Assembly: GCA_017473435.1 (NCBI GenBank)
Contig: JAFULG010000001.1
Span: 1 to 59,163, forward strand
From: Clostridia bacterium
GTDB taxonomy: Bacteria; Bacillota; Clostridia; Oscillospirales; Acutalibacteraceae
Length of the DNA: 59,163 nucleotides
Direction of reading: 5' to 3'
Numbering within the stretch: the first letter of the stretch is position 1; each line of letters begins with the position of its first letter. The translations under genes were made by a program, and so were the position numbers. Positions 3,902 to 34,117 of the stretch are shown piece after piece. The notes beneath the pieces are model-generated. The model made no database searches, was not told the origin of the DNA, and saw only the letters and a program-made list of their open reading frames with translations.

Positions 3902-5880
3902 ATAGCATCCACCTCCGCAAGAATCTGTCTGTTTGAGAAGCCCTGAAGGTCCATAGTACCTGAAGGACAAGTAACGGTACAAGCACCGCAGCCCTGACAA
4001 AGAGCTGAATTGACAACTGCAACACGGCGGTTTTCTCTTATACCATGGTCATTGATTTCCTTAACCTCGTAGGAAATAGCACCGTAAGGACATACGTTTG
4101 CACAAGAACCGCAACCGTTACACATAAGCTCGTCAGGTTTAGCTGTACAGGGGTTAGTAAGGAGCTTATCCTTTGCAAGCAGACCTACAACCTTAACTGC
4201 GGCAGCACCTGCCTGAGAAACGGTTTCGGGAATATCCTTGGGACCCTGACAGATACCTGAAAGGAACACACCTGCTGTAGGTGATTCAACAGGACGAAGC
4301 TTGGGATGAGCTTCTGTAAGGAAGTTGTTTGTATCAATACTTGCTGTAAGCATTGTAGCAATCTTTCTTACTGAGGGGCTGGGCTCAACTGCTGCTGCAA
4401 GAACAACCATATCTGCGGAAATCTTGAGCTGCTTACCGTCAAGAAGGTCAACACCGTGAACAAGAAGTGAGCCGTCGGGCTGAGGAGCAACCTTACCTAC
4501 CTGACCCTTAACGTAGTTTACACCGTATTCCTCAACAGCTCTTCTGTAGAACTCGTCGAAGTTCTTACCGGGTGTTCTTACGTCGATATAGAAAACAGTG
4601 ACGTTTACATCGGGATATTTATCTCTGATGAGCATTGCGTGCTTTGCTGTGTACATACAGCAGATCTTTGAGCAGTAGGGCTTACCCTTGCTCTCATCGC
4701 AACGTGAGCCTACACACTGAACGAATACAATGTTCTTGGGAGCCTTACCGTCGGAAAGACGCTCAAGGTGACCCTTTGTAGGACCTGCTGCATTCATAAT
4801 TCTTTCAAGCTCAAGAGAAGTGATAACGTCCTTGCTCTGTGAGTAAGCGTACTCTTCAAGATTGTCAAGCTTGATAATTTCAAAGCCTGTTGCAACAACG
4901 ATTGCACCGTACTTACGTGTAACGATTTCATCCTTCTGAGTGTAATCGATAGCACCTGCCTGACAGAATCTTTCGCAAATACCGCATTTGCCTGTCTTAA
5001 GCTTTGTACACTGTGTGGGGTCAATTACGGGAACGTTGGGAATAGCCTGAGCAAAGGGAGTGTAAATAGCAGGACGGTTGTTAAGTCCGCTGTTGAACTC
5101 ACTGAGAGCCTTTTTGCTGGGGCATTTTTCCATACACACGCCGCAGCCTGTGCACTTGTCCATATTTACATATCTTGCTTTCTTTCTGATATCAACCGTG
5201 AAATCACCAACGAAGCCTGAAACCTTTTCAATTTCGCTGTAGGTGTAAAGGTTGATTCTTTCATGAGCAGCTGCATCAACCATCTTAGGTGTGAGGATAC
5301 AGGCTGAACAGTCAAGTGTGGGGAAGGTTTTATCAAGCTGAGCCATCTTACCGCCGATTGAGGGAGTCTTTTCAACGATATCTACCTCGTAGCCTGCATC
5401 TGCGATATCAAGAGCAGTCTGAATACCTGCGATACCGCCGCCGATAACGAGAGCTCTTTTTGTAACTCTGCTTTCACCGGGAAGAAGCGAGGTGTTGAGG
5501 CTTACCTTTGCAATAGCTGCTCTGGCAAGGATAACAGCCTTTTCTGTACCCTCCTCGATGTCCTTGTGAATCCATGAGCACTGCTCACGGAGGTTTGCAA
5601 TTTCAACCATGTAAGGGTTAAGACCTGCCTTTTCGGCACACTTACGGAAGGTTGCTTCATGCATTCTGGGTGAGCAGGAGCAGACAACGATACCCTTAAG
5701 GTTCTTTTCCCTGATTGCAGTTGCAATTCTTTCCTGACCTGCTTCGGAACACATGTACTGATACTCTTCGGCATGAACAACGCCCGGTTCAAGCCTTGCC
5801 ATTTCAACAACCTTCTTAACGTCAACGGTTGCTGCGATGTTACTGCCGCAATGGCAGACAAATACTCCTATACCGTGCAT
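3892..5880 (-). CDS. hdrA: HdrA, flavin-containing heterodisulfide reductase-like subunit
   Basis: A 662-residue HdrA homologue, the electron-bifurcating FAD subunit of heterodisulfide reductase complexes. The N-terminus has a cysteine pair VCHCGSNI, then the FAD Rossmann motif VIGGGIAGIQTALDIAD and the conserved LDCSACILTPKM. Four cysteine groups follow: CTGCGVCMEKCP, CGICERFCQAG, CNGCGSCANVCP and CQGCGACTVTCP. The start is the ATG at 5880, with AGGAGG at good distance. In bacteria lacking methanogenesis such HdrA proteins pair with FlxABCD and pass NADH electrons to ferredoxin and a disulfide-type acceptor. The actual high-potential acceptor here is unknown. Confidence 0.92.
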   Translation of the reverse strand: MHGIGVFVCHCGSNIAATVDVKKVVEMARLEPGVVHAEEYQYMCSEAGQERIATAIREKNLKGIVVCSCSPRMHEATFRKCAEKAGLNPYMVEIANLREQCSWIHKDIEEGTEKAVILARAAIAKVSLNTSLLPGESRVTKRALVIGGGIAGIQTALDIADAGYEVDIVEKTPSIGGKMAQLDKTFPTLDCSACILTPKMVDAAAHERINLYTYSEIEKVSGFVGDFTVDIRKKARYVNMDKCTGCGVCMEKCPSKKALSEFNSGLNNRPAIYTPFAQAIPNVPVIDPTQCTKLKTGKCGICERFCQAGAIDYTQKDEIVTRKYGAIVVATGFEIIKLDNLEEYAYSQSKDVITSLELERIMNAAGPTKGHLERLSDGKAPKNIVFVQCVGSRCDESKGKPYCSKICCMYTAKHAMLIRDKYPDVNVTVFYIDVRTPGKNFDEFYRRAVEEYGVNYVKGQVGKVAPQPDGSLLVHGVDLLDGKQLKISADMVVLAAAVEPSPSVRKIATMLTASIDTNNFLTEAHPKLRPVESPTAGVFLSGICQGPKDIPETVSQAGAAAVKVVGLLAKDKLLTNPCTAKPDELMCNGCGSCANVCPYGAISYEVKEINDHGIRENRRVAVVNSALCQGCGACTVTCPSGTMDLQGFSNRQILAEVDAICR

Positions 5881-5884
5881 AGCT

Positions 5885-6277
5885 TTACCTCCTGAACTTT
5901 CTGAAAGCACTTACAAGAAGCTGCTGAGGAAGATCCTCATCAACAAGTGCGGGGATTTCATCGGGAACGAGATAGCTTCCGCCCTTCTGTCTTACTGCAA
6001 GCTGTCTTGCGGCATCAACAATCTTACCGGGCTTAACATCTCTGGGACAACGCTCAACGCAGGCGAAGCATGAAAGGCAAACCCAGAGTGAGTCGCACTT
6101 TGCAAGAGCTTCTACATCCTCGTTGATAACATAGGATACAAACTGATGGGGCTTGATATCCATTTTTTCGTATGCGGGGCATGAGGCTGAGCACTTGCCG
6201 CACTTCATACATTTGAGAGGGTTGGTACCGCTGATTTCCTGTACCATTTCGGACTGTCTTTTCTTTGAAGCTTCCAC
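5885..6277 (-). CDS. hdrC: HdrC, 4Fe-4S ferredoxin-like subunit
   Basis: A 130-residue protein with two [4Fe-4S] motifs, CMKCGKCSASCP and CLSCFACVERCP, matching HdrC in size and layout. It shuttles electrons from HdrA to HdrB. The start appears to be GTG directly after the hdrB stop (TAAGTG), with an AGGAGG site inside the hdrB tail. It lies between hdrB and hdrA in a tight operon. Confidence 0.9.
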   Translation of the reverse strand: MEASKKRQSEMVQEISGTNPLKCMKCGKCSASCPAYEKMDIKPHQFVSYVINEDVEALAKCDSLWVCLSCFACVERCPRDVKPGKIVDAARQLAVRQKGGSYLVPDEIPALVDEDLPQQLLVSAFRKFRR

Positions 6278-7072
6278 TTATGCGTCAACCTCCTCTTTTA
6301 CGCCGAGAGCCTCGGCAAGAATTTCGGTAAAGTAGATTACGGGAACACCGCCGGCTGTATTCTTTGTAAGGTTATACTGACAAAGAGGACAGGCTGTTAC
6401 AAGCATTTCTGCCTCAAAGCCCTTTGCACTGTCCATTACGGTATTGCACATCTTCTTTGAAAGGTCGTTATCCTTAAGTGAAATGTATCCGCCGCAGCAT
6501 TCGTTACGGTAAGGATAAACCACAGGCTCTGCGCCGAGAGCGCGGATAAAGTCCTCAATGATTGTGGGATTTTCGGGATTGTCGAAAGCGATAATGTCAC
6601 TGGGTCTTAAAAGCAGGCAGCCGTAATAAGCACCGATTTTGCGACCTGTGAGAGGGTTTACTACCTTCTTCTTGATTTCATCAAAGCCGACCTTGTCACG
6701 AAGCACCTCAAGAAAATGAAGAACCTCTGTTTCACCGAGATAAGGTTCATCGAGCTTAAGGTAGTTGTTAGCTCTTGTTCTGATGTCTTCCACGTTTTTC
6801 ATATCATCGTTAACACGCTTGATAACGTGGTGGCAGGCGGAGCAGAGAGTTACAAGCTCCTGTCCCTTTACCTTTGCTTCGTTGAGGGCACGTACCGATG
6901 AAAGCTTTGAGCCGATTTCGTCGCTTGAAAGCGGATAAACACCGCCGCAGCACTGCCAGTCCTCAAGCTCTTCAAGCTCAAAGCCGAGAGCCTTTGCAGA
7001 TGCTCTTGCGTAATCGTCCAGCTTTTTAGCCTTTGTTCTTAAGGTACAACCCGGATAATAACTGTACTTCAT
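6278..7072 (-). CDS. hdrB: HdrB, CCG-domain heterodisulfide reductase-like catalytic subunit
   Basis: A 264-residue HdrB homologue. Two cysteine-rich CCG domains are visible: the first through CCGGVYPL and LCSACH, the second through ECCGGYI and ACPLCQ. In HdrB these bind non-cubane [4Fe-4S] clusters that reduce the CoM-S-S-CoB disulfide; in bacteria the substrate is undefined. It is first in the operon. A strong sigma-A-type promoter with a Spo0A-box sequence lies about 110 bases upstream. Confidence 0.92.
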   Translation of the reverse strand: MKYSYYPGCTLRTKAKKLDDYARASAKALGFELEELEDWQCCGGVYPLSSDEIGSKLSSVRALNEAKVKGQELVTLCSACHHVIKRVNDDMKNVEDIRTRANNYLKLDEPYLGETEVLHFLEVLRDKVGFDEIKKKVVNPLTGRKIGAYYGCLLLRPSDIIAFDNPENPTIIEDFIRALGAEPVVYPYRNECCGGYISLKDNDLSKKMCNTVMDSAKGFEAEMLVTACPLCQYNLTKNTAGGVPVIYFTEILAEALGVKEEVDA

Positions 7073-24336: not shown

Positions 24337-25872
24337 TTGAAAAAACAGATTCGGACAGTCAGACAGTTGGCAGAATATGCCGCTGAAAAATATAAAGACA
24401 AAGATTTTTGCCGTTATATAGTAAACGGTGAAATAGCAAGAAAAAGCTACAGAGAATTTTACGAAGACAGCCTTGCTGTGTGCAGATATATACGTTCAGA
24501 AAACCCCGATCGCATACATATCGGCTTTATCGGCAAAACAAGCTATGAATACATTGCCTGTCTTACCGGTATGATCTTCAGCGGAAATACTGTTGTCCCC
24601 TTTTCTCCCGACATCACCGAAGAAGAAGCAACCGTTCTGTTCGATGATGCGGATATCGGAATGCTTTTCTGCGAGGAAAGCTTTGTTCCTATGGCGGAAA
24701 AAATCAAAGAAGCTTATCCCGGGCTGAAAAAAATCATCTCCCTCGGCGACAGAGACCGCTTTAACGCTATATTCAGAGCCTACAGCTCCGAATCGGAATA
24801 TGCCGCTCTTTCCGATATTGATGAAGATCCCGACAGATGTGCTCTTATTATCTACACTTCCGGCACGACGGGAAAACGCAAGGGTGTTATGCTCTCCAAC
24901 AGCAACCTTGCCGCTAACTCAAGCTATGATGCTTACAATATGGACGATGACGATGTAAGCTTTTCCGTGCTTCCGATGCACCATGTTTTCTGCTACGCCT
25001 GCGACGTTCTCAAGACACTCTACGACGGCGGCTGTCTTTGTCTTAACGGAGCGCTGAATGAGCTATACAAGAATATCCTTATTTTCGAACCGACAATTAT
25101 GCGAATTGTCCCTGCTATGTGTAAGTCCGTTCTTACAAAAATCAAAATCACCGCCCGTAAAAATCCGCAGCTTTCAAAGCGTGAAGCCGCCGAAAAGGTT
25201 GTCGGTAAAAATTTCAGACGTATGATTGCAGGCAGCGCCTTCCTCAGCCAGGCAATAATTGACGAATTTGAACAGTACGGTATAATCGCCCGCCAGGGTT
25301 ACGGTATGAGCGAGTGCAGCCCGAGAATCACCACCTCAGATTTTTCGGACAATAACAAATACTCCAACGGCAGACTCATAGGTGTCGACGAAGTAAGATG
25401 TACCGACGGCGAAATCCAAGTCAGAGGCCCGAGCGTAATGAAGGGATATTATAAGATGCCCGAAGAAACCGCAGAAGCCTTTACCGAAGACGGCTTCCTC
25501 CACACCGGAGACCTCGGATACATAAAAGATGACCACGTTTATCTTATAGGCAGAAGAAAGAACCTTATCATACTCTCCAACGGAGAAAACATTTCACCCG
25601 AGGAAATTGAAAATAAATTTGCCGATTTCGGAGAAGTAAAAGAGGTTATTGTTTTTGCCGAAAACGATAAGCTGATGGCAGAAATATATCCCGATGATCT
25701 TCTTACGGCAACAGCTGATGCTAAGGATATTGAAAGCACACTTTCACTCATTGTTGATAAGGTGAATATGCAACTTCATTCAGACAGAGCTATATATGAT
25801 TTCAGAATCAGAAATCATCCCTTCGAAAGAACTTCAACCGGGAAAATCAAAAGAACAGAATTTTATTTTTGA
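24337..25872 (+). CDS. Stand-alone adenylation enzyme (ANL superfamily)
   Basis: A 511-residue AMP-forming adenylation enzyme. Core motifs are in order: YTSGTTGKRKGVML (P-loop A3), YGMSECSPRI (A5), HTGDLGYIKDD (A7), GRRKNLIILSNGENISP (A8) and TSTGKIKRTEF with the C-terminal catalytic Lys (A10). The start is TTG after AAGGAAGTG. It is followed by a condensation-like gene and a carrier protein, so it most likely activates an amino or fatty acid and loads the carrier at 27332. A CoA-ligase role is the alternative. The substrate cannot be read from the sequence. Confidence 0.88.
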   Translation: MKKQIRTVRQLAEYAAEKYKDKDFCRYIVNGEIARKSYREFYEDSLAVCRYIRSENPDRIHIGFIGKTSYEYIACLTGMIFSGNTVVPFSPDITEEEATVLFDDADIGMLFCEESFVPMAEKIKEAYPGLKKIISLGDRDRFNAIFRAYSSESEYAALSDIDEDPDRCALIIYTSGTTGKRKGVMLSNSNLAANSSYDAYNMDDDDVSFSVLPMHHVFCYACDVLKTLYDGGCLCLNGALNELYKNILIFEPTIMRIVPAMCKSVLTKIKITARKNPQLSKREAAEKVVGKNFRRMIAGSAFLSQAIIDEFEQYGIIARQGYGMSECSPRITTSDFSDNNKYSNGRLIGVDEVRCTDGEIQVRGPSVMKGYYKMPEETAEAFTEDGFLHTGDLGYIKDDHVYLIGRRKNLIILSNGENISPEEIENKFADFGEVKEVIVFAENDKLMAEIYPDDLLTATADAKDIESTLSLIVDKVNMQLHSDRAIYDFRIRNHPFERTSTGKIKRTEFYF

Positions 25873-25883
25873 GGAGGATCAGT

Positions 25884-27428
25884 ATGACCGAATTTAAACT
25901 GAAAGACGGCAAAACAGTTAACGCTTATCCTATCACAAGCTCTCAGCAGATGATGTATCTCATGTCGCTTAAATACGGTTCAGGTTATCCCGTAAATAAT
26001 ATAGGTTGCGGCGTTTACTGGAAAGGCGAAATAAACAAAGGTGAAATGAAGGCTTCAATATACGAAGCTGTCAGACGTTGCGATACCATGAGACTTCGCT
26101 TTGTAATGGGTAAAAAGCTCAAGCTGCATCAGTATGTTACAGAGAAGAGCGAGCTTCTTGTTGATGAGTGGGATTTAAGCGCTTACACCGTTGAAGAGGC
26201 AGAAGAAAAGCTTCTTGCCTTTTCCAGAACCACCATTCCGATGTTCAACTGCGAGGTTCACAAGATTTTTCTTGTAAAATTCAAGGACGGCTATCATGGC
26301 TTGTTTATGAGATTGCATCACCTTGCTATGGACGCTTATTCTCTCAAGATTTTTGTAAATGACATATTTGATATTTACAAACACAGAACTCAGGGCACCC
26401 CCTATCCCAAGCCTATGCGACCCTACATACCCGTGCTTGAAAAAGAGCTTGAATATGAGACCTCCGAACAGCATTCAATCGACAGTCAGTACTGGTATGA
26501 CTCTCTGGCTAAGGCTACAGAACCCATATTTACTGATTTTATGCTCGAAAACAGGCTTAAAATTCAGCAGCAGAAATATCCCGAGCGCCGTTTTGCCGAT
26601 ATTCATTCAGGTCTGCCCGATGCTGATATGGTCAAGTTCCATATGAGCAAGGAAAACAGCGAAAAATTAACAGAGCTTTGCCGTGAAAAGGAAATCTCGA
26701 TATTCTCGGCTATTTCAATGGCTGTTCGAACTGCTCTTTCATGCTTCAATGATAATCAGGAGGATGTATCGTTCAAAATGATCATCAACAGACGCGGCAC
26801 AATAGCCGAAAAGAAATCCGGCGGTCTGCGTATAAACTTCCTTCCTATGCGAAGCATTATCAAGCCTGAAGAAACCTTTCTGGAGGCTGTTAACAAAATT
26901 TCAGAAATACAAAACGAGATGTATTTACACTCGAAGCTGTCTTTTCTTGAAATGCTGAAAGAAAGACACAAGTCAATGGCTAAAGAGGCTAAATTTGACT
27001 CAACCTACGACAGCTTCGGACTGTCATATCAGCCGTTAATGCAAACAACCTGCATTGACGATGAAATGAAAGCATCACTGAAAACCATATGGTACAATAA
27101 CGGAGCTACAATGATTCCGCTTTACGTTACCGTAAGCCACCGAGCTTCTGACAACGGACTTGACTTCACTTGTGAATACCGTAAGGAACAGCAGGCTGAA
27201 TATGATCTTGGCATTCTTTACTCAAAAATTGAAAAGACCCTTGTACTTGCAGCTGAAAACCCCGACATTACTGTTGGTGAAATTTTAAACAAAATAGAAT
27301 TAACTCAGGAAGAAAGGAACGGAAAACCGCAATGCAAACCTTCGAAAGACTTATCGGAATCCTTGAAAACTACGTGGAAGTTGACGAAATCAAGGCTGAA
27401 GACAATTTTAAGCTTGATCTCGGCATGA
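25884..27428 (+). CDS. Stand-alone condensation-domain protein
   Basis: A 514-residue condensation-superfamily protein. The catalytic motif is HHLAMDA (near residue 140), HHxxxD with Ala in place of the usual final Gly. Later parts include a DFT-like strand region. The ATG at 25884 follows GAGGAGG, 15 bases after the adenylation stop. The last 97 bases overlap the carrier gene in another frame, and that tail (rich in Lys, Ser, Thr) looks unlike a folded domain. Expected role: join an acyl or aminoacyl group on the carrier to an acceptor. Product unknown. Confidence 0.82.
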   Translation: MTEFKLKDGKTVNAYPITSSQQMMYLMSLKYGSGYPVNNIGCGVYWKGEINKGEMKASIYEAVRRCDTMRLRFVMGKKLKLHQYVTEKSELLVDEWDLSAYTVEEAEEKLLAFSRTTIPMFNCEVHKIFLVKFKDGYHGLFMRLHHLAMDAYSLKIFVNDIFDIYKHRTQGTPYPKPMRPYIPVLEKELEYETSEQHSIDSQYWYDSLAKATEPIFTDFMLENRLKIQQQKYPERRFADIHSGLPDADMVKFHMSKENSEKLTELCREKEISIFSAISMAVRTALSCFNDNQEDVSFKMIINRRGTIAEKKSGGLRINFLPMRSIIKPEETFLEAVNKISEIQNEMYLHSKLSFLEMLKERHKSMAKEAKFDSTYDSFGLSYQPLMQTTCIDDEMKASLKTIWYNNGATMIPLYVTVSHRASDNGLDFTCEYRKEQQAEYDLGILYSKIEKTLVLAAENPDITVGEILNKIELTQEERNGKPQCKPSKDLSESLKTTWKLTKSRLKTILSLISA

Positions 27429-27565
27429 GCTCCTTTGACACTATGTGTATGGTAGAAGACATTAAGTCCGAATTCGGAATTTCTCTTACCGCAGCGGATT
27501 TTATAAAAAATAAAACCGTTGGCAGAATGGCTGAACACATAGACGCTTTAAACGCAGCAAACTGA
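27332..27565 (+). CDS. Acyl/peptidyl carrier protein
   Basis: A 77-residue phosphopantetheine carrier protein with the attachment motif DLGMSSFD (Ser for the 4'-phosphopantetheine arm) and the usual four-helix plan. The ATG is 97 bases inside the condensation gene, with GAAAGGAA upstream, and a terminator follows. With the two upstream genes it makes a discrete A, C and T protein set. No phosphopantetheinyl transferase, thioesterase or reductase lies next to it. Confidence 0.9.
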   Translation: MQTFERLIGILENYVEVDEIKAEDNFKLDLGMSSFDTMCMVEDIKSEFGISLTAADFIKNKTVGRMAEHIDALNAAN

Positions 27566-27691: not shown

Positions 27692-30214
<2,523 letters not shown>

Positions 30215-30216
30215 AA

Positions 30217-32427
30217 TTATGACCTCGTAACAAATTCACCGAGAGCCTCTTTAAGTGAATTTTTAAGTTCTTCATCAAATTTGTTTGCTTGCTTGATTTC
30301 AAGCGCAAGTTCAGCCTTTTCTTCACGGAAATATCTGTAAAGATCCTTTTCAAACCTTTCCATTTCATCGGGAGAAATACCGTCGGCATAGCCCTCACTA
30401 ACAGCAAAGATAAGAATTGTCTGCATATCATCCTCTACGGGAGCATATCTTGGCTGACGGAGCGCCTCAGTAAGAAGCCTGCCCGAAGCAAGAGTTTTCT
30501 TGGTTTCGTCATCAATATCAGAACCGAACTGCATAAACTCAGCAAGCTCTCTGTACTGTGCAAGACGGGTACGAAGAGATGAAGAAACCTTTTTCATTGA
30601 AGGTGACTGTGCCGCACCGCCTACACGGGAAACAGAGAGACCAACGTTAACAGCAGGACGCTGACCTTCATTGAAGAGCTCTGCATCAAGGAAAATCTGA
30701 CCGTCTGTGATAGATATAACGTTAGTGGGTATATAAGCAGAAATGTCCCCTGCAAGAGTTTCAATAATAGGCAGAGCTGTAATCGAGCCTCCGCCAAGCT
30801 CATCGGAAAGATGAGCCGCTCTTTCAAGAAGTCTTGAATGGAGATAGAAGATATCACCCGGATAAGCCTCTCGACCGGAAGGTCTGTGAAGAAGAAGAGA
30901 AAGCTCACGGTAGGCTACGGCATGCTTGGAAAGGTCATCATAAACAATTAAGACATCCTTACCCTTATACATAAAATATTCTGCCATTGCTGAACCTGAG
31001 AAAGGAGCAATATACTGAAGAGCCGCTGAAGAAGAAGCAGGAACAGCTATAATTGTTGTGTATTCCATTGCACCGTTGGCTTCAAGCTTTTCCTTGATTT
31101 CAGCAACAAGAGTATCCTTCTGGCCTATTGCAACGTAAATACAGATTGTATCCTTGCCCTTCTGATTTATTATAGTATCAATAGCGATAGCTGTTTTACC
31201 TGTCTGCCTGTCTCCGATAATAAGCTCACGCTGACCCTTACCGATAGGAACAAGAGCATCAATAGCCTTAATACCTGTGTGAAGCGGTGAATTAACAGGT
31301 GCTCTGTCAAGAATACCGGGAGCCTTAAACTCAACAGGCCGAGTTTCCTTATAAGGAAGATAACCCATAGCGTCTATTGGATTACCCATAGCATCTACTA
31401 CCCTGCCCAGGAGACATTCGCCAACGGGTACAGATGCAATCCTGCCGACTCGTCTGACCTTACTGCCGCTTTCGATATGCTCGTACTCACCGAAGATAAC
31501 ACAGCCGATACGGTTCTGCTGAATATCAAGCACCATACCTCTTTCTCCGCATTCGAACTCAACGACCTCACCGTACATAATATCAGCAAGACCGTCCATC
31601 CAACAGATACCGTCAGAAACGGTCATTACTCTGCCAAGCTGATACTGATGTATGTGTGGCTTGAAGGTTTCAGCCTTTTCAGTAAATTCCTGAATGAGGT
31701 GTCCTACAGTATCGTCGTGAAGAATAGGCTCGCAATTAAGATTCTTACCGAACTGATAAAGCTCTTCGGAAACAGTTCCGTCATATACAGTATCACCTAT
31801 TCTAAGCTTAAGGCCGCCTATAAGTGCAGGATCTTCAAGCACCCACAGGGAGGTTTTTCCTCCTACGGTATCAAGCATTTGTGTCGTAGCTTTGTCCACA
31901 TCATCAACTATATCCTTAGGGAGCGGATAAGCTGAGGTAAGAGTTACGTAAAGTACCTCCTGATGCTTAAGGTAAGCCATATCACCGGGAGTAAGCGAGA
32001 TTCTTTTAAGAATTTCATCAACAACCTGTCTGTCGAGCTCTTTTATTTCATTAAGATATTTCTCGTAAGAAAAGAGGCTTACTACATTCTCCTTCATTAC
32101 GGAAAAAAGCTCCTTACGGGCATCCTGAATCATATTACGGTGAATTTCACTTTTTTCTCTTTCGCCGAAAGCTTCAATGGATGCAATTTTTTCCGTAACA
32201 AGGCTTTGCGCTTTCTCGGCTTCATCACCGCAATCTGCACATATAACCTCTGCAGAAGGATCAACCAAGGTCGGCATATCCATTTTCTCTATTTCTTCCG
32301 CCCTGTCAAGCTCACTGTTTATTCTTTCATATCTGCCGCCAAAAAGTCTTTTTACAGTTTTTCTGCCTACTATAAAAAGAAGAATGAGCAGTATAAGAAA
32401 GTTAATTATTACATATTGTATTTCCAT
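30217..32427 (-). CDS. atpA: Fused ATP synthase b-like stalk, delta C-terminal domain and alpha subunit
   Basis: One uninterrupted 736-codon frame. Residues ~4-20 are a membrane helix (YVIINFLILLILLFIVG), as at the start of b subunits. Residues ~22-140 are helical and charged, stalk-like. Residues ~145-230 match the delta (OSCP) C-terminal domain: LYVTLTSAYPLP, then DPALIGGLKLRIGDTVYDG. From ~240 to 736 runs a complete alpha subunit: LGRVMTVSDGI, Walker A GDRQTGKT at 405-412, the ALQYIAPFSG region and SRVGGAAQSP. The six-helix delta N-terminal domain is not evident. I saw no good internal ribosome site before the alpha part. It starts four bases after atpF and replaces separate atpH and atpA. 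b-delta fusions are known in mycobacteria; linking alpha as well is unusual. Confidence 0.93.
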   Translation of the reverse strand: MEIQYVIINFLILLILLFIVGRKTVKRLFGGRYERINSELDRAEEIEKMDMPTLVDPSAEVICADCGDEAEKAQSLVTEKIASIEAFGEREKSEIHRNMIQDARKELFSVMKENVVSLFSYEKYLNEIKELDRQVVDEILKRISLTPGDMAYLKHQEVLYVTLTSAYPLPKDIVDDVDKATTQMLDTVGGKTSLWVLEDPALIGGLKLRIGDTVYDGTVSEELYQFGKNLNCEPILHDDTVGHLIQEFTEKAETFKPHIHQYQLGRVMTVSDGICWMDGLADIMYGEVVEFECGERGMVLDIQQNRIGCVIFGEYEHIESGSKVRRVGRIASVPVGECLLGRVVDAMGNPIDAMGYLPYKETRPVEFKAPGILDRAPVNSPLHTGIKAIDALVPIGKGQRELIIGDRQTGKTAIAIDTIINQKGKDTICIYVAIGQKDTLVAEIKEKLEANGAMEYTTIIAVPASSSAALQYIAPFSGSAMAEYFMYKGKDVLIVYDDLSKHAVAYRELSLLLHRPSGREAYPGDIFYLHSRLLERAAHLSDELGGGSITALPIIETLAGDISAYIPTNVISITDGQIFLDAELFNEGQRPAVNVGLSVSRVGGAAQSPSMKKVSSSLRTRLAQYRELAEFMQFGSDIDDETKKTLASGRLLTEALRQPRYAPVEDDMQTILIFAVSEGYADGISPDEMERFEKDLYRYFREEKAELALEIKQANKFDEELKNSLKEALGEFVTRS

Positions 32428-32431
32428 AATA

Positions 32432-32857
32432 TCATATCCTGTTAGAGATTATGTTTTTGACAAAGATAGCTGCCGCTGTTTCCATTTTCGGAGCAACGGT
32501 AAAAACTATCTTGTCATACTCACCCGTTATGCCGCTTCTGTATTCTTCAATATCATCAAGACATTTTCTGCGGACGTTTTCAATTTCCTTTTTTCCATGG
32601 GACTGTATCTGCTGTATCTTTGCTTTAGCTTGTGCGGCACTTTCCGCTTCGGCACGAAGCCTTTCTTCAGCGAGACGTCTTTCATTTTCTGCAGTTATGC
32701 CTTCAATATCGCGGAGTTTTTTGTCTGCCGCTTCAATCTTCTCTTTACGGCTGTCGAGCATTTTAAGCACAGGTGTAAAAAGCAGATTTTTAAGTATCAG
32801 CATAAGCAGAAGAAAGCATATTACAGTCCACACTACAACTGATGGCTGTATACTCAT
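32432..32857 (-). CDS. atpF: ATP synthase b subunit
   Basis: A 141-residue peripheral-stalk protein. An N-terminal membrane helix (VVVWTVICFLLLMLILKNLLF, residues ~7-27) precedes one long charged helix (coiled coil). It carries the family FTPVLKMLDSRKEKI segment. Usual bacterial b is ~160-170 residues, so this is short. It could pair with the b-like N-terminus of the neighbouring fusion in a b/b'-type stalk (inference). Confidence 0.9.
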   Translation of the reverse strand: MSIQPSVVVWTVICFLLLMLILKNLLFTPVLKMLDSRKEKIEAADKKLRDIEGITAENERRLAEERLRAEAESAAQAKAKIQQIQSHGKKEIENVRRKCLDDIEEYRSGITGEYDKIVFTVAPKMETAAAIFVKNIISNRI

Positions 32858-32868
32858 GATCTGCTACC

Positions 32869-33099
32869 TCAGATCTTACCGATAAGCATAAATGCAATAA
32901 GAAGGCCGTAAATAGTAAGCGCCTCCATAAGTGCAAGAGAAATAATAAGGGTTGAACGGATATCCTTTGCCGCATCAGGCTGACGGGCAATGCTTTCCAT
33001 TGCGGCTTTAGCTGTCAGGCCCTGACCGATAGCAGGACCGAGAGTGCTGATTGCGATTGCGATTGCTGCTGCGAGAGCGATAATTGCTGAATTTGTCAT
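32869..33099 (-). CDS. atpE: ATP synthase c subunit
   Basis: A 76-residue two-helix proteolipid. Helix 1 ends [17 protein letters not shown], the loop is ARQPDA and helix 2 has the ion-binding Glu in [11 protein letters not shown]. The helix-1 Gln of Na+-type rings is present, but the Ser/Thr pair usually following the Glu in Na+ enzymes (EST) is Ala-Leu, so proton coupling is the better guess. AAGGAG precedes the ATG. Confidence 0.95.
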
Positions 33100-33123: not shown

Positions 33124-33795
33124 TTAATCTTCGGTTACTTCTTCTAAATATATTGATACAAGCATAGTGAAAACCATTGCCTGTAAAGCACAGAACAAAA
33201 CAGAAAGTGCCATCATAACCACAGGTGCCCCTATAGGGAATATGTGGTAAAGCTCCTCGGTAACCATTTCCTCACCGAAAATGTTACCGTAGAGACGTAA
33301 CGCAAGAGATGCCGGCTTAATGAACTCGTCAAGTACAAGAAGCGGAAGCATAAAGAACATCGGCATTACAAAGCGTTTGAAATAATGCTTGACATTATGC
33401 CTGAGTCCTGAAATCTGTAAAAACAGGAAGGTAAGCACACCTAAGCCCGCTGTAACGGAAAGAGATGCCGTGGGGGCTTTGACATAATCCGTAAGTCCCA
33501 CTCCGGGAATCATACCCGAATAGTTTGAGAAAATAATGAAAACAAAAAGCGAAGCAAGGAACGTAAAATATTTTCTTGCTTTCTTTTTACCGAGGATATC
33601 CGTAAAGAAATTATCCAGATATTCAACGCCTGTCTCTACTATATTCTGAAATTTACCCGGACGCTCTTTAAGGTTAAGCTTTACAATAAGTGAAACCAAT
33701 GCAAGCACACCGAGAATTATCCACATTGCAACCACTTCGCCCGTTACGTCCAATATACCGAACAGCTTAATAATTACCTCAGATTTTTCACCCAT
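33124..33795 (-). CDS. atpB: ATP synthase a subunit
   Basis: A 223-residue membrane protein, about five to six helices. The essential Arg lies in FIKPASLALRLYGNIFGEEM, and GMIPGVGLT and VEYLDNFFTDILG are typical. The start at 33795 follows GGGAGG and overlaps the atpI stop by 8 bases, so they are coupled. It forms the ion half-channels against the c ring. Confidence 0.94.
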   Translation of the reverse strand: MGEKSEVIIKLFGILDVTGEVVAMWIILGVLALVSLIVKLNLKERPGKFQNIVETGVEYLDNFFTDILGKKKARKYFTFLASLFVFIIFSNYSGMIPGVGLTDYVKAPTASLSVTAGLGVLTFLFLQISGLRHNVKHYFKRFVMPMFFMLPLLVLDEFIKPASLALRLYGNIFGEEMVTEELYHIFPIGAPVVMMALSVLFCALQAMVFTMLVSIYLEEVTED

Positions 33796-34117
33796 CAGCT
33801 TTACCTCCCTTTTCTTTTCTGTCTTCCGTTGCCTGTTCATTTACTTTAAGCAGTTTTCTTGTAAAATAAAACATCGGCAAGGTCAAGCCTGCAACAGCAC
33901 CCACAAGAAGATATGACGGGTCTGCGAGCTGCGTTTTAACACCTGCAAAATAAGTCAGCGCAAGAAATCCCACCTGCAAGGCTTGTCTTATCACTGTGAT
34001 AAGCGAATATTTTTCGGGAGCTTTTATAAGCACCTTTTCAGATATAAGGTAGTTTATAAAGGCTATAATTAGCCCTGCCGTTAAAGCAATGACAGCACCT
34101 GCAATATTATGGTTCAT
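33788..34117 (-). CDS. atpI: ATP synthase subunit I-like membrane protein
   Basis: A 109-residue protein with about four hydrophobic segments and a basic C-terminus, in the place and size of AtpI (c-ring assembly/Mg2+ factor). Sequence conservation in this family is low, so the call rests mostly on position as first gene of the atp operon, membrane topology and the LTLPMFYFTRKLL end of the last helix. Confidence 0.75.
   Translation of the reverse strand: MNHNIAGAVIALTAGLIIAFINYLISEKVLIKAPEKYSLITVIRQALQVGFLALTYFAGVKTQLADPSYLLVGAVAGLTLPMFYFTRKLLKVNEQATEDRKEKGGKADG

Follow-up and report, generated by a model that had tools for sequence, protein, structure and literature searches.

The window analysed here, a stretch of 59,163 nucleotides from the draft genome of a Clostridia bacterium, carries an F-type ATP synthase operon with the gene order atpI-like, a, c, short b, b-deltaC-alpha, gamma, beta and epsilon (Table 1). 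Between the genes for the short b and gamma subunits lies a single gene whose product joins a b-type membrane stalk, the C-terminal domain of delta and a complete alpha subunit in one chain. The small protein encoded at the atpI position had no family matches above cut-off in Pfam or NCBIfam, and the start of the a subunit is probably the later ATG at MGEKSEV. The separate short b subunit, which an earlier note on this DNA had recognised as atpF, is indeed present; its best NCBIfam model is that of subunit B' (PRK08476; 50.4 bits, under the cut-off of 118), and we refer to it as b'. Judged from its length, the epsilon subunit leaves no room for the C-terminal helices. Adjoining the atp operon, on the forward strand (24337-27565), an AMP-binding enzyme, a condensation-domain protein and a 77-aa carrier protein are encoded side by side, a small non-ribosomal-peptide-like set of separate proteins.

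Table 1. Genes of the atp operon and parts of the fused protein, in window coordinates.
Feature	Position	Strand	Description and evidence
Small membrane protein, atpI position	33788..34117	-	109 aa; position and hydrophobic sequence only
a subunit	33124..33840	-	listed ORF 238 aa; Pfam ATP-synt_A, 151 bits
c subunit	32869..33099	-	76 aa, alanine-rich first helix; Pfam ATP-synt_C
Separate short b-type subunit (b')	32432..32857	-	141 aa; Pfam ATP-synt_B, 31.8 bits
b-deltaC-alpha fusion gene	30217..32427	-	736 aa plus stop; ATG start; 0 internal stops
b-type part, residues 1-145	31993..32427	-	Pfam ATP-synt_B, AlphaFold2 helices, VIA-align
delta/OSCP C-terminal domain, residues 152-230	31738..31974	-	Pfam OSCP; fold match to E. 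coli delta
Linker (to about residue 240), then alpha N-terminal helix (241-254) running into beta barrel, residues 231-262	31642..31737	-	AlphaFold2
Complete F1 alpha, residues 263-736	30220..31641	-	TIGR00962; three Pfam alpha domains
gamma subunit	29390..30214	-	274 aa; Pfam ATP-synt, 166.7 bits
beta subunit	27988..29388	-	466 aa, P-loop GGAGVGKT; TIGR01039, 770 bits
epsilon subunit	27692..27991	-	99 aa, beta-sandwich only; Pfam ATP-synt_DE_N at residues 8-92 only

The Pfam and NCBIfam matches of the fused protein, for which we estimate a mass of about 82 kDa from its 736 residues, bear out the earlier reading of a b-like stalk, a delta C-terminal domain and a whole alpha subunit. ATP-synt_B matches residues 4-85 with 24.4 bits, under the 28-bit cut-off, which both relatives scanned passed (L043 with 30.0 bits, L133 with 28.5 bits). 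AlphaFold2 predicts a helix at residues 2-47, with a membrane portion of about residues 2-21 followed by R22 and K23, and stalk helices at residues 67-142. The predicted b helix is broken at residues 48-66 (window 32230-32286) by a variable, acidic and proline-containing stretch of low AlphaFold2 confidence, whose length differs among the relatives. The OSCP profile (PF00213) matches residues 152-230 with 45.1 bits (cut-off 22.3) through its positions 96-172 of 172 only; positions 1-95 are unmatched in the fused chain, and the six-helix N-terminal domain of delta is thus absent from it, as the earlier note had suspected. The 19-residue delta signature cited there lies at residues 199-217. In the single-chain AlphaFold2 model, the deltaC fold is predicted with a block pLDDT of 83-93 and is joined by a short linker to the alpha helix; it matches E. 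coli delta 104-174 with 1.7 A over 71 residues. For the alpha part, NCBIfam atpA (TIGR00962) spans residues 249-734 with 720.1 bits against a cut-off of 484.45, the three Pfam alpha domains occupy residues 265-328, 385-600 and 607-732, and the Walker A motif GDRQTGKT is intact.

The host genome (2.56 Mb, 91 contigs, 96.9% complete) contains no second OSCP/delta match at E values up to 1, the fused one being the sole match, and a single copy of the a subunit was found. ATP-synt_ab has four matches: the fused alpha and the beta of this operon, plus two frames of 593 and 458 aa on contig C34. The P-loop of the 592-aa protein from C34 reads GPFGSGKT, which we take to be the signature of a V/A-type A subunit. 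Separate atpH and atpA genes of the F type, noted before as missing from the operon, were therefore not found elsewhere in this genome either.

We compared this arrangement with known systems in which delta is fused or lacking. N-ATPases (alternate F1F0) have F-type operons without a separate delta gene, a property shared by the operon in the window. Membership in this family was nevertheless rejected, since all six matching subunits scored under the model cut-offs (bits/cut-off: alpha 598.9/750.5, beta 585.9/752, a 120.4/302.1, c 54.7/130.85, gamma 33.5/282.35, short b 36/224.7). The V/A-ATPase subunit E and FliH of flagellar/type III systems are separate proteins that have no membrane helix and are unfused to an ATPase subunit. 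The mycobacterial b-delta protein also has b and delta in one chain, and it is the top VIA-align match of the b-deltaC part; it contains a complete delta, and alpha is separate. With over 430 residues it is longer, and we rejected this type for the window protein because the latter has no delta N-terminal domain and carries alpha in the same chain. Fusions of delta and b have been described in Mycobacterium and Gordonia (PMC5709465).

The b-deltaC-alpha order is widely conserved. It is common to 34 distinct proteins, the window protein and 33 relatives, no two of which are identical over the 350 residues compared; L118 is truncated where its contig ends. Whole-chain identity to the window protein drops to 52% among the relatives. 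Seven of the 23 congeners possess the full fusion with 79-88% identity, one further congener (G003) has a shorter deltaC-alpha fusion, and the remaining 15 gave weak matches only, of V/A-like size. Nine more full fusions (L036-L044) were found among the best 80 loci of named genomes. When 394 genomes sampled from the order were searched with the first 248 residues of the window protein, 36 matched; in 18 of these (window included; L118 contig-cut) b-deltaC is in frame with alpha, and the other 18 have ordinary delta-sized frames of 178-241 aa. The shorter fusion of G003 (L195 / L017) shares no more than about 50% of its residues with the window protein; a transfer or a replacement could explain this, as could a contig wrongly assigned to the genome, whose contamination is 5%. 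One b-deltaC-alpha operon, L043, comes from a MAG labelled Chloroflexi; since it groups within the Clostridia clade beside L042, mislabelling or transfer would account for it.

We surveyed 26 relative genomes, of which G003 and G026 carry the shorter fusion and the other 24 the triple fusion. In all but three of them, delta matches above cut-off were confined to the C-half inside the fused gene; G114 and G398 have a second, full delta, and G404 has a second locus; weak additional delta matches under cut-off occur in G307 and G015. A second F operon is present in three of the 24 triple-fusion genomes (G114, G398, G404), so that coexistence occurs and is not the rule. The second locus of G404 (L196, G404:C31) encodes a 578-aa deltaC-alpha fusion in addition to the b-deltaC-alpha operon of the same genome (L211, G404:C36). 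In 11 of the 24 genomes, the fused alpha and its beta were the only alpha/beta-type subunits detected; three of these genomes (G082, G112, G042) are 98-99% complete and the others 62-91%. Another 11 contain additional frames of V/A-type size, an assignment made by frame size and low scores, and two have a second normal F operon. Judged from the gene content, the fused enzyme is the sole rotary ATPase in the first 11 genomes, unless a gap hides another, and it should therefore be functional.

In a tree of alpha subunits, 33 b-deltaC-alpha proteins form one clade (99% SH-aLRT) with L045 as sister. The tree comprises 106 of 144 non-identical alphas, made up of 33 of 34 b-deltaC-alpha proteins, all 25 shorter fusions and 48 of 85 normal alphas; the contig-cut L118 and normal rows that were randomly drawn out or had fewer than 430 residues were left out. 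It is a quick tree with SH-aLRT support only, in which L107, L187 and L020 are long-branched. The fused rows fall into the b-deltaC-alpha clade with L045, a group of 10, a group of 13 and L107. Despite this split, an AU test that placed all 58 fused rows together against the 48 normal rows did not reject the grouping (p 0.453), and we do not claim several independent origins of deltaC-alpha.

Fusion of the delta C-domain to alpha extends beyond the triple fusion; at least 20 of 398 genomes of the phylum (window included; one contig-cut) have both in one stop-free frame. The shorter loci (L015, L017, L045, L048, L102, L105 and others) carry deltaC on alpha as the window protein does. They differ from it in having no b part in the chain, and they belong mostly to the two other tree groups. 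Their pre-alpha extension is too short for a delta N-terminal domain, with the exception of L177 (= L153), a 690-aa fusion (4274-6343, genome G808) in which alpha follows an almost entire delta (OSCP profile 26-171). From its sequence, L177 is an apparent intermediate that keeps most of the delta N-terminal domain. On a different contig of G808, a delta and an alpha frame lie next to each other. In L045, a 319-aa b protein (4483-5442) encoded just upstream of deltaC-alpha ends in two repeats that resemble the delta C-domain; they are 32% identical to each other (E 1e-13 in a self-comparison), and copy 1 matches the alpha-linked deltaC of this locus with E 2e-7, a value from a search of few short subjects. 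Profile matches of the repeats are weak, and Pfam OSCP does not match them in the 319-aa protein. The L045 operon thus possibly encodes three delta C-domains, and b-deltaC-deltaC beside deltaC-alpha is a plausible precursor of the triple fusion.

The closest known counterpart of the window protein is an engineered one. Ueno et al. (2025) deleted the delta N-terminal domain in the Bacillus PS3 enzyme and fused the remainder to alpha; in cryo-EM, the resulting deltaDN-alpha FoF1 had as many as three stalks, with three a subunits (PMC12229609). Its H+/ATP ratio was 5.8, compared to 3.0 for the ordinary enzyme, and gels showed 2.2-fold more a and 1.8-fold more b (PMC12229609). The average number of stalks was about two biochemically and 1.26 per molecule by cryo-EM, a difference that the authors blamed on dissociation; the observed stalks always retained an a subunit (PMC12229609). 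According to the same report, all ATP synthases known before 2025 have a single a subunit per complex; it names natural delta-alpha fusions with three examples, and it guesses that nature might use the multi-stalk design (PMC12229609). By their description there, these natural fusions (Acidaminococcus fermentans, UniProt G4Q3K6, A0A1I2C5T3) resemble the window protein in joining the delta C-domain to alpha, and differ from it in that b is not part of their chain (PMC12229609).

The best PDB sequence match to the junction of the window protein is chain 9jc1_I (E 5.8e-13), compared to 3.3e-5 for the ordinary Bacillus PS3 delta. This is the engineered deltaDN-alpha chain, present in three copies in entry 9JC1, and the alignment covers 127 versus 128 residues. 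Both proteins have the delta N-terminal domain removed, deltaC on the N-terminus of alpha and a near-equal junction length, and in both systems epsilon is without C-terminal helices. In its domain make-up, and with no separate delta or F-type alpha found in its host genome, the window protein agrees with the natural deltaDN-alpha type of FoF1 proposed in PMC12229609. The two differ in one respect: b is separate in the engineered enzyme and can fall off, whereas it is covalently held in the b-deltaC-alpha chain, to which the separate b' is added.

By analogy with the engineered enzyme, we consider it probable that the operon encodes a natural three-stalk FoF1 in which each alpha has its own stalk, more than one a subunit is bound and H+/ATP is raised. 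In one chain, alpha would be preceded by a b helix anchored in the membrane and by the C-terminal domain of delta, which binds b. If this chain stays intact in the complex, each F1 would have three stalks, one per alpha, and a b' would probably complete each of them as the presumed partner of the fused b. In ordinary enzymes, the delta N-terminal domain sits on the threefold axis above alpha3beta3 and limits the stalks to one. With this domain gone, the three alphas can be equivalent; with b covalently attached as well, the stalk half cannot dissociate and three stalks would be obligatory. The earlier note had deduced that a strict fusion would give each F1 three stalks and as many delta domains; cryo-EM showed such an arrangement, with up to three stalks, for the engineered deltaDN-alpha enzyme (PMC12229609), and for the window enzyme we infer it. 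The foot of every stalk would keep an a subunit in place at the c-ring, so that as many as three could be bound. More protons would then pass per turn, a lower proton motive force would suffice for ATP synthesis, and in the reverse direction more protons would be pumped per ATP. An Rnf gene was found above cut-off in nine of ten genomes tested, that of the window included; an ion gradient can hence be made, and a high H+/ATP would let even a modest one drive ATP synthesis.

Epsilon measures 81-102 aa in all 21 of the 27 fused operons given in which it was recognised by pattern, and by this measure is too short for the C-terminal helices. The c subunit was recovered by pattern from 23 of 25 fused operons, and in 22 of the 23 the 11 residues before ST are free of glycine, L043 having one; among six unfused c subunits of the same order, four have GAG at that place and two do not. 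An AxAxAxA alanine motif accompanies the large-diameter c13 ring of B. pseudofirmus OF4 (PMC2914638), and by this analogy the alanine-rich c helix points to a wide ring, a hint that we regard as suggestive only. The c subunit of the window contains GPAIGQG, with the glutamine in place, and MEALTIYG, in which alanine follows E. In Na+ c-rings, a serine/threonine stands beside the ion-binding glutamate. We tentatively entertain a stronger form of the three-stalk reading, in which a wide c-ring with the alanine motif is surrounded by three a subunits and three obligatory, covalently tethered stalks, and H+/ATP is near the c number (10 or more). This form may well be too far-reaching; if it holds, no other known ATP synthase would be geared as strongly, and the enzyme would have evolved for life in the gut at very low proton motive force.

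Among the alternatives, the one that fares best accepts three tethered stalks but binds only one a subunit, the extra stalks serving as mechanical braces at an ordinary H+/ATP. V-type enzymes have three stalks and one a subunit, and eight of the ten genomes tested have one a gene as ordinary bacteria do, the other two (G404, G114) having a second F operon. The flexible-looking stretch at residues 48-66 of b could moreover leave stalk feet unattached, and the predicted structure indicates that some stalks might thereby stay unengaged. This is set against the costs that unpartnered b membrane helices would presumably incur, and against the engineered enzyme, in which no stalk was seen without its a subunit (PMC12229609). 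We therefore judge the one-a enzyme rather unlikely, and its chances overlap with those of the preferred reading, because three tethered stalks are common to both.

A less probable alternative would restore an ordinary single-stalk enzyme, in which an F1 contains two free alphas, made through an internal start or cleavage, and a single chain of full length. In its favour, eight of the 34 genes have an in-frame ATG where alpha formerly began (codon 236), and one more has a GTG; the ATG of congeners initially made internal translation a promising candidate. In the window species, however, codon 236 is CTT, and no start codon is present there in 25 of the 34 genes. At least four contiguous Shine-Dalgarno bases precede five of 72 in-frame junction starts (in five of 34 genes), against a background of 117 of 1263 starts across whole genes; of the genes' own starts, some of which were chosen by script, 22 of 34 have them. 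The only junction start of the window gene is an ATG at codon 268, inside the beta barrel and preceded by two Shine-Dalgarno bases. Initiation near codon 240, raised in the earlier note, thus finds no support, as the Shine-Dalgarno matches are no better than background. The junction itself speaks against a cut site: the segment corresponding to residues 232-268 is exactly 37 residues long in 31 of the 34 proteins and 36, 36 and 39 in the others, yet no residue between 217 and 262 is invariant. A constant length combined with free sequence suggests a strut rather than a cut site, and the deltaC-alpha link looks geometrically constrained from this alignment. In addition, without the delta N-terminal domain the two free alphas would miss their usual cap. 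Taken together, we regard the enzyme with free alphas as improbable.

That the fusion is an assembly error, a pseudogene or a silent copy beside a normal set elsewhere is a negligible prospect: a gap is conceivable in a 91-contig draft that is 97% complete, but nothing was found in its favour, the frame has no internal stop, and 33 distinct relatives have it with the parts in identical order. Conservation of alpha is strong, and a search of the whole host genome brought up neither another delta nor another alpha of the F type, hence no normal atpH/atpA set. Comparison with the relatives refutes an artefact as well as the missed stop or frameshift considered before.

Delta-alpha fusions have been known in nature since 2025, and the b-deltaC-alpha chain, as read from the genes, would be the added feature. 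None of the titles and abstracts of open-licence PMC papers listed by our searches concerns a b-delta-alpha fusion; Supplementary Fig. 9 of PMC12229609 may show one. Among the gene orders of a 2017 survey is one from Clostridia with alpha, b, c and a and no delta (PMC5709465); the survey may have met such fusions with the delta part unseen. By analogy with the engineered enzyme, the mode of working appears well supported, and it is from this analogy that the stoichiometry would follow. Because b is fixed in the chain, the number of stalks would be written into the gene, and three alphas must then mean three stalk halves. Gut Clostridia are thus strong natural candidates for a multi-stalk ATP synthase, and their enzyme would be the natural counterpart of the recently engineered one, which was built so that a weaker proton gradient suffices for ATP synthesis.
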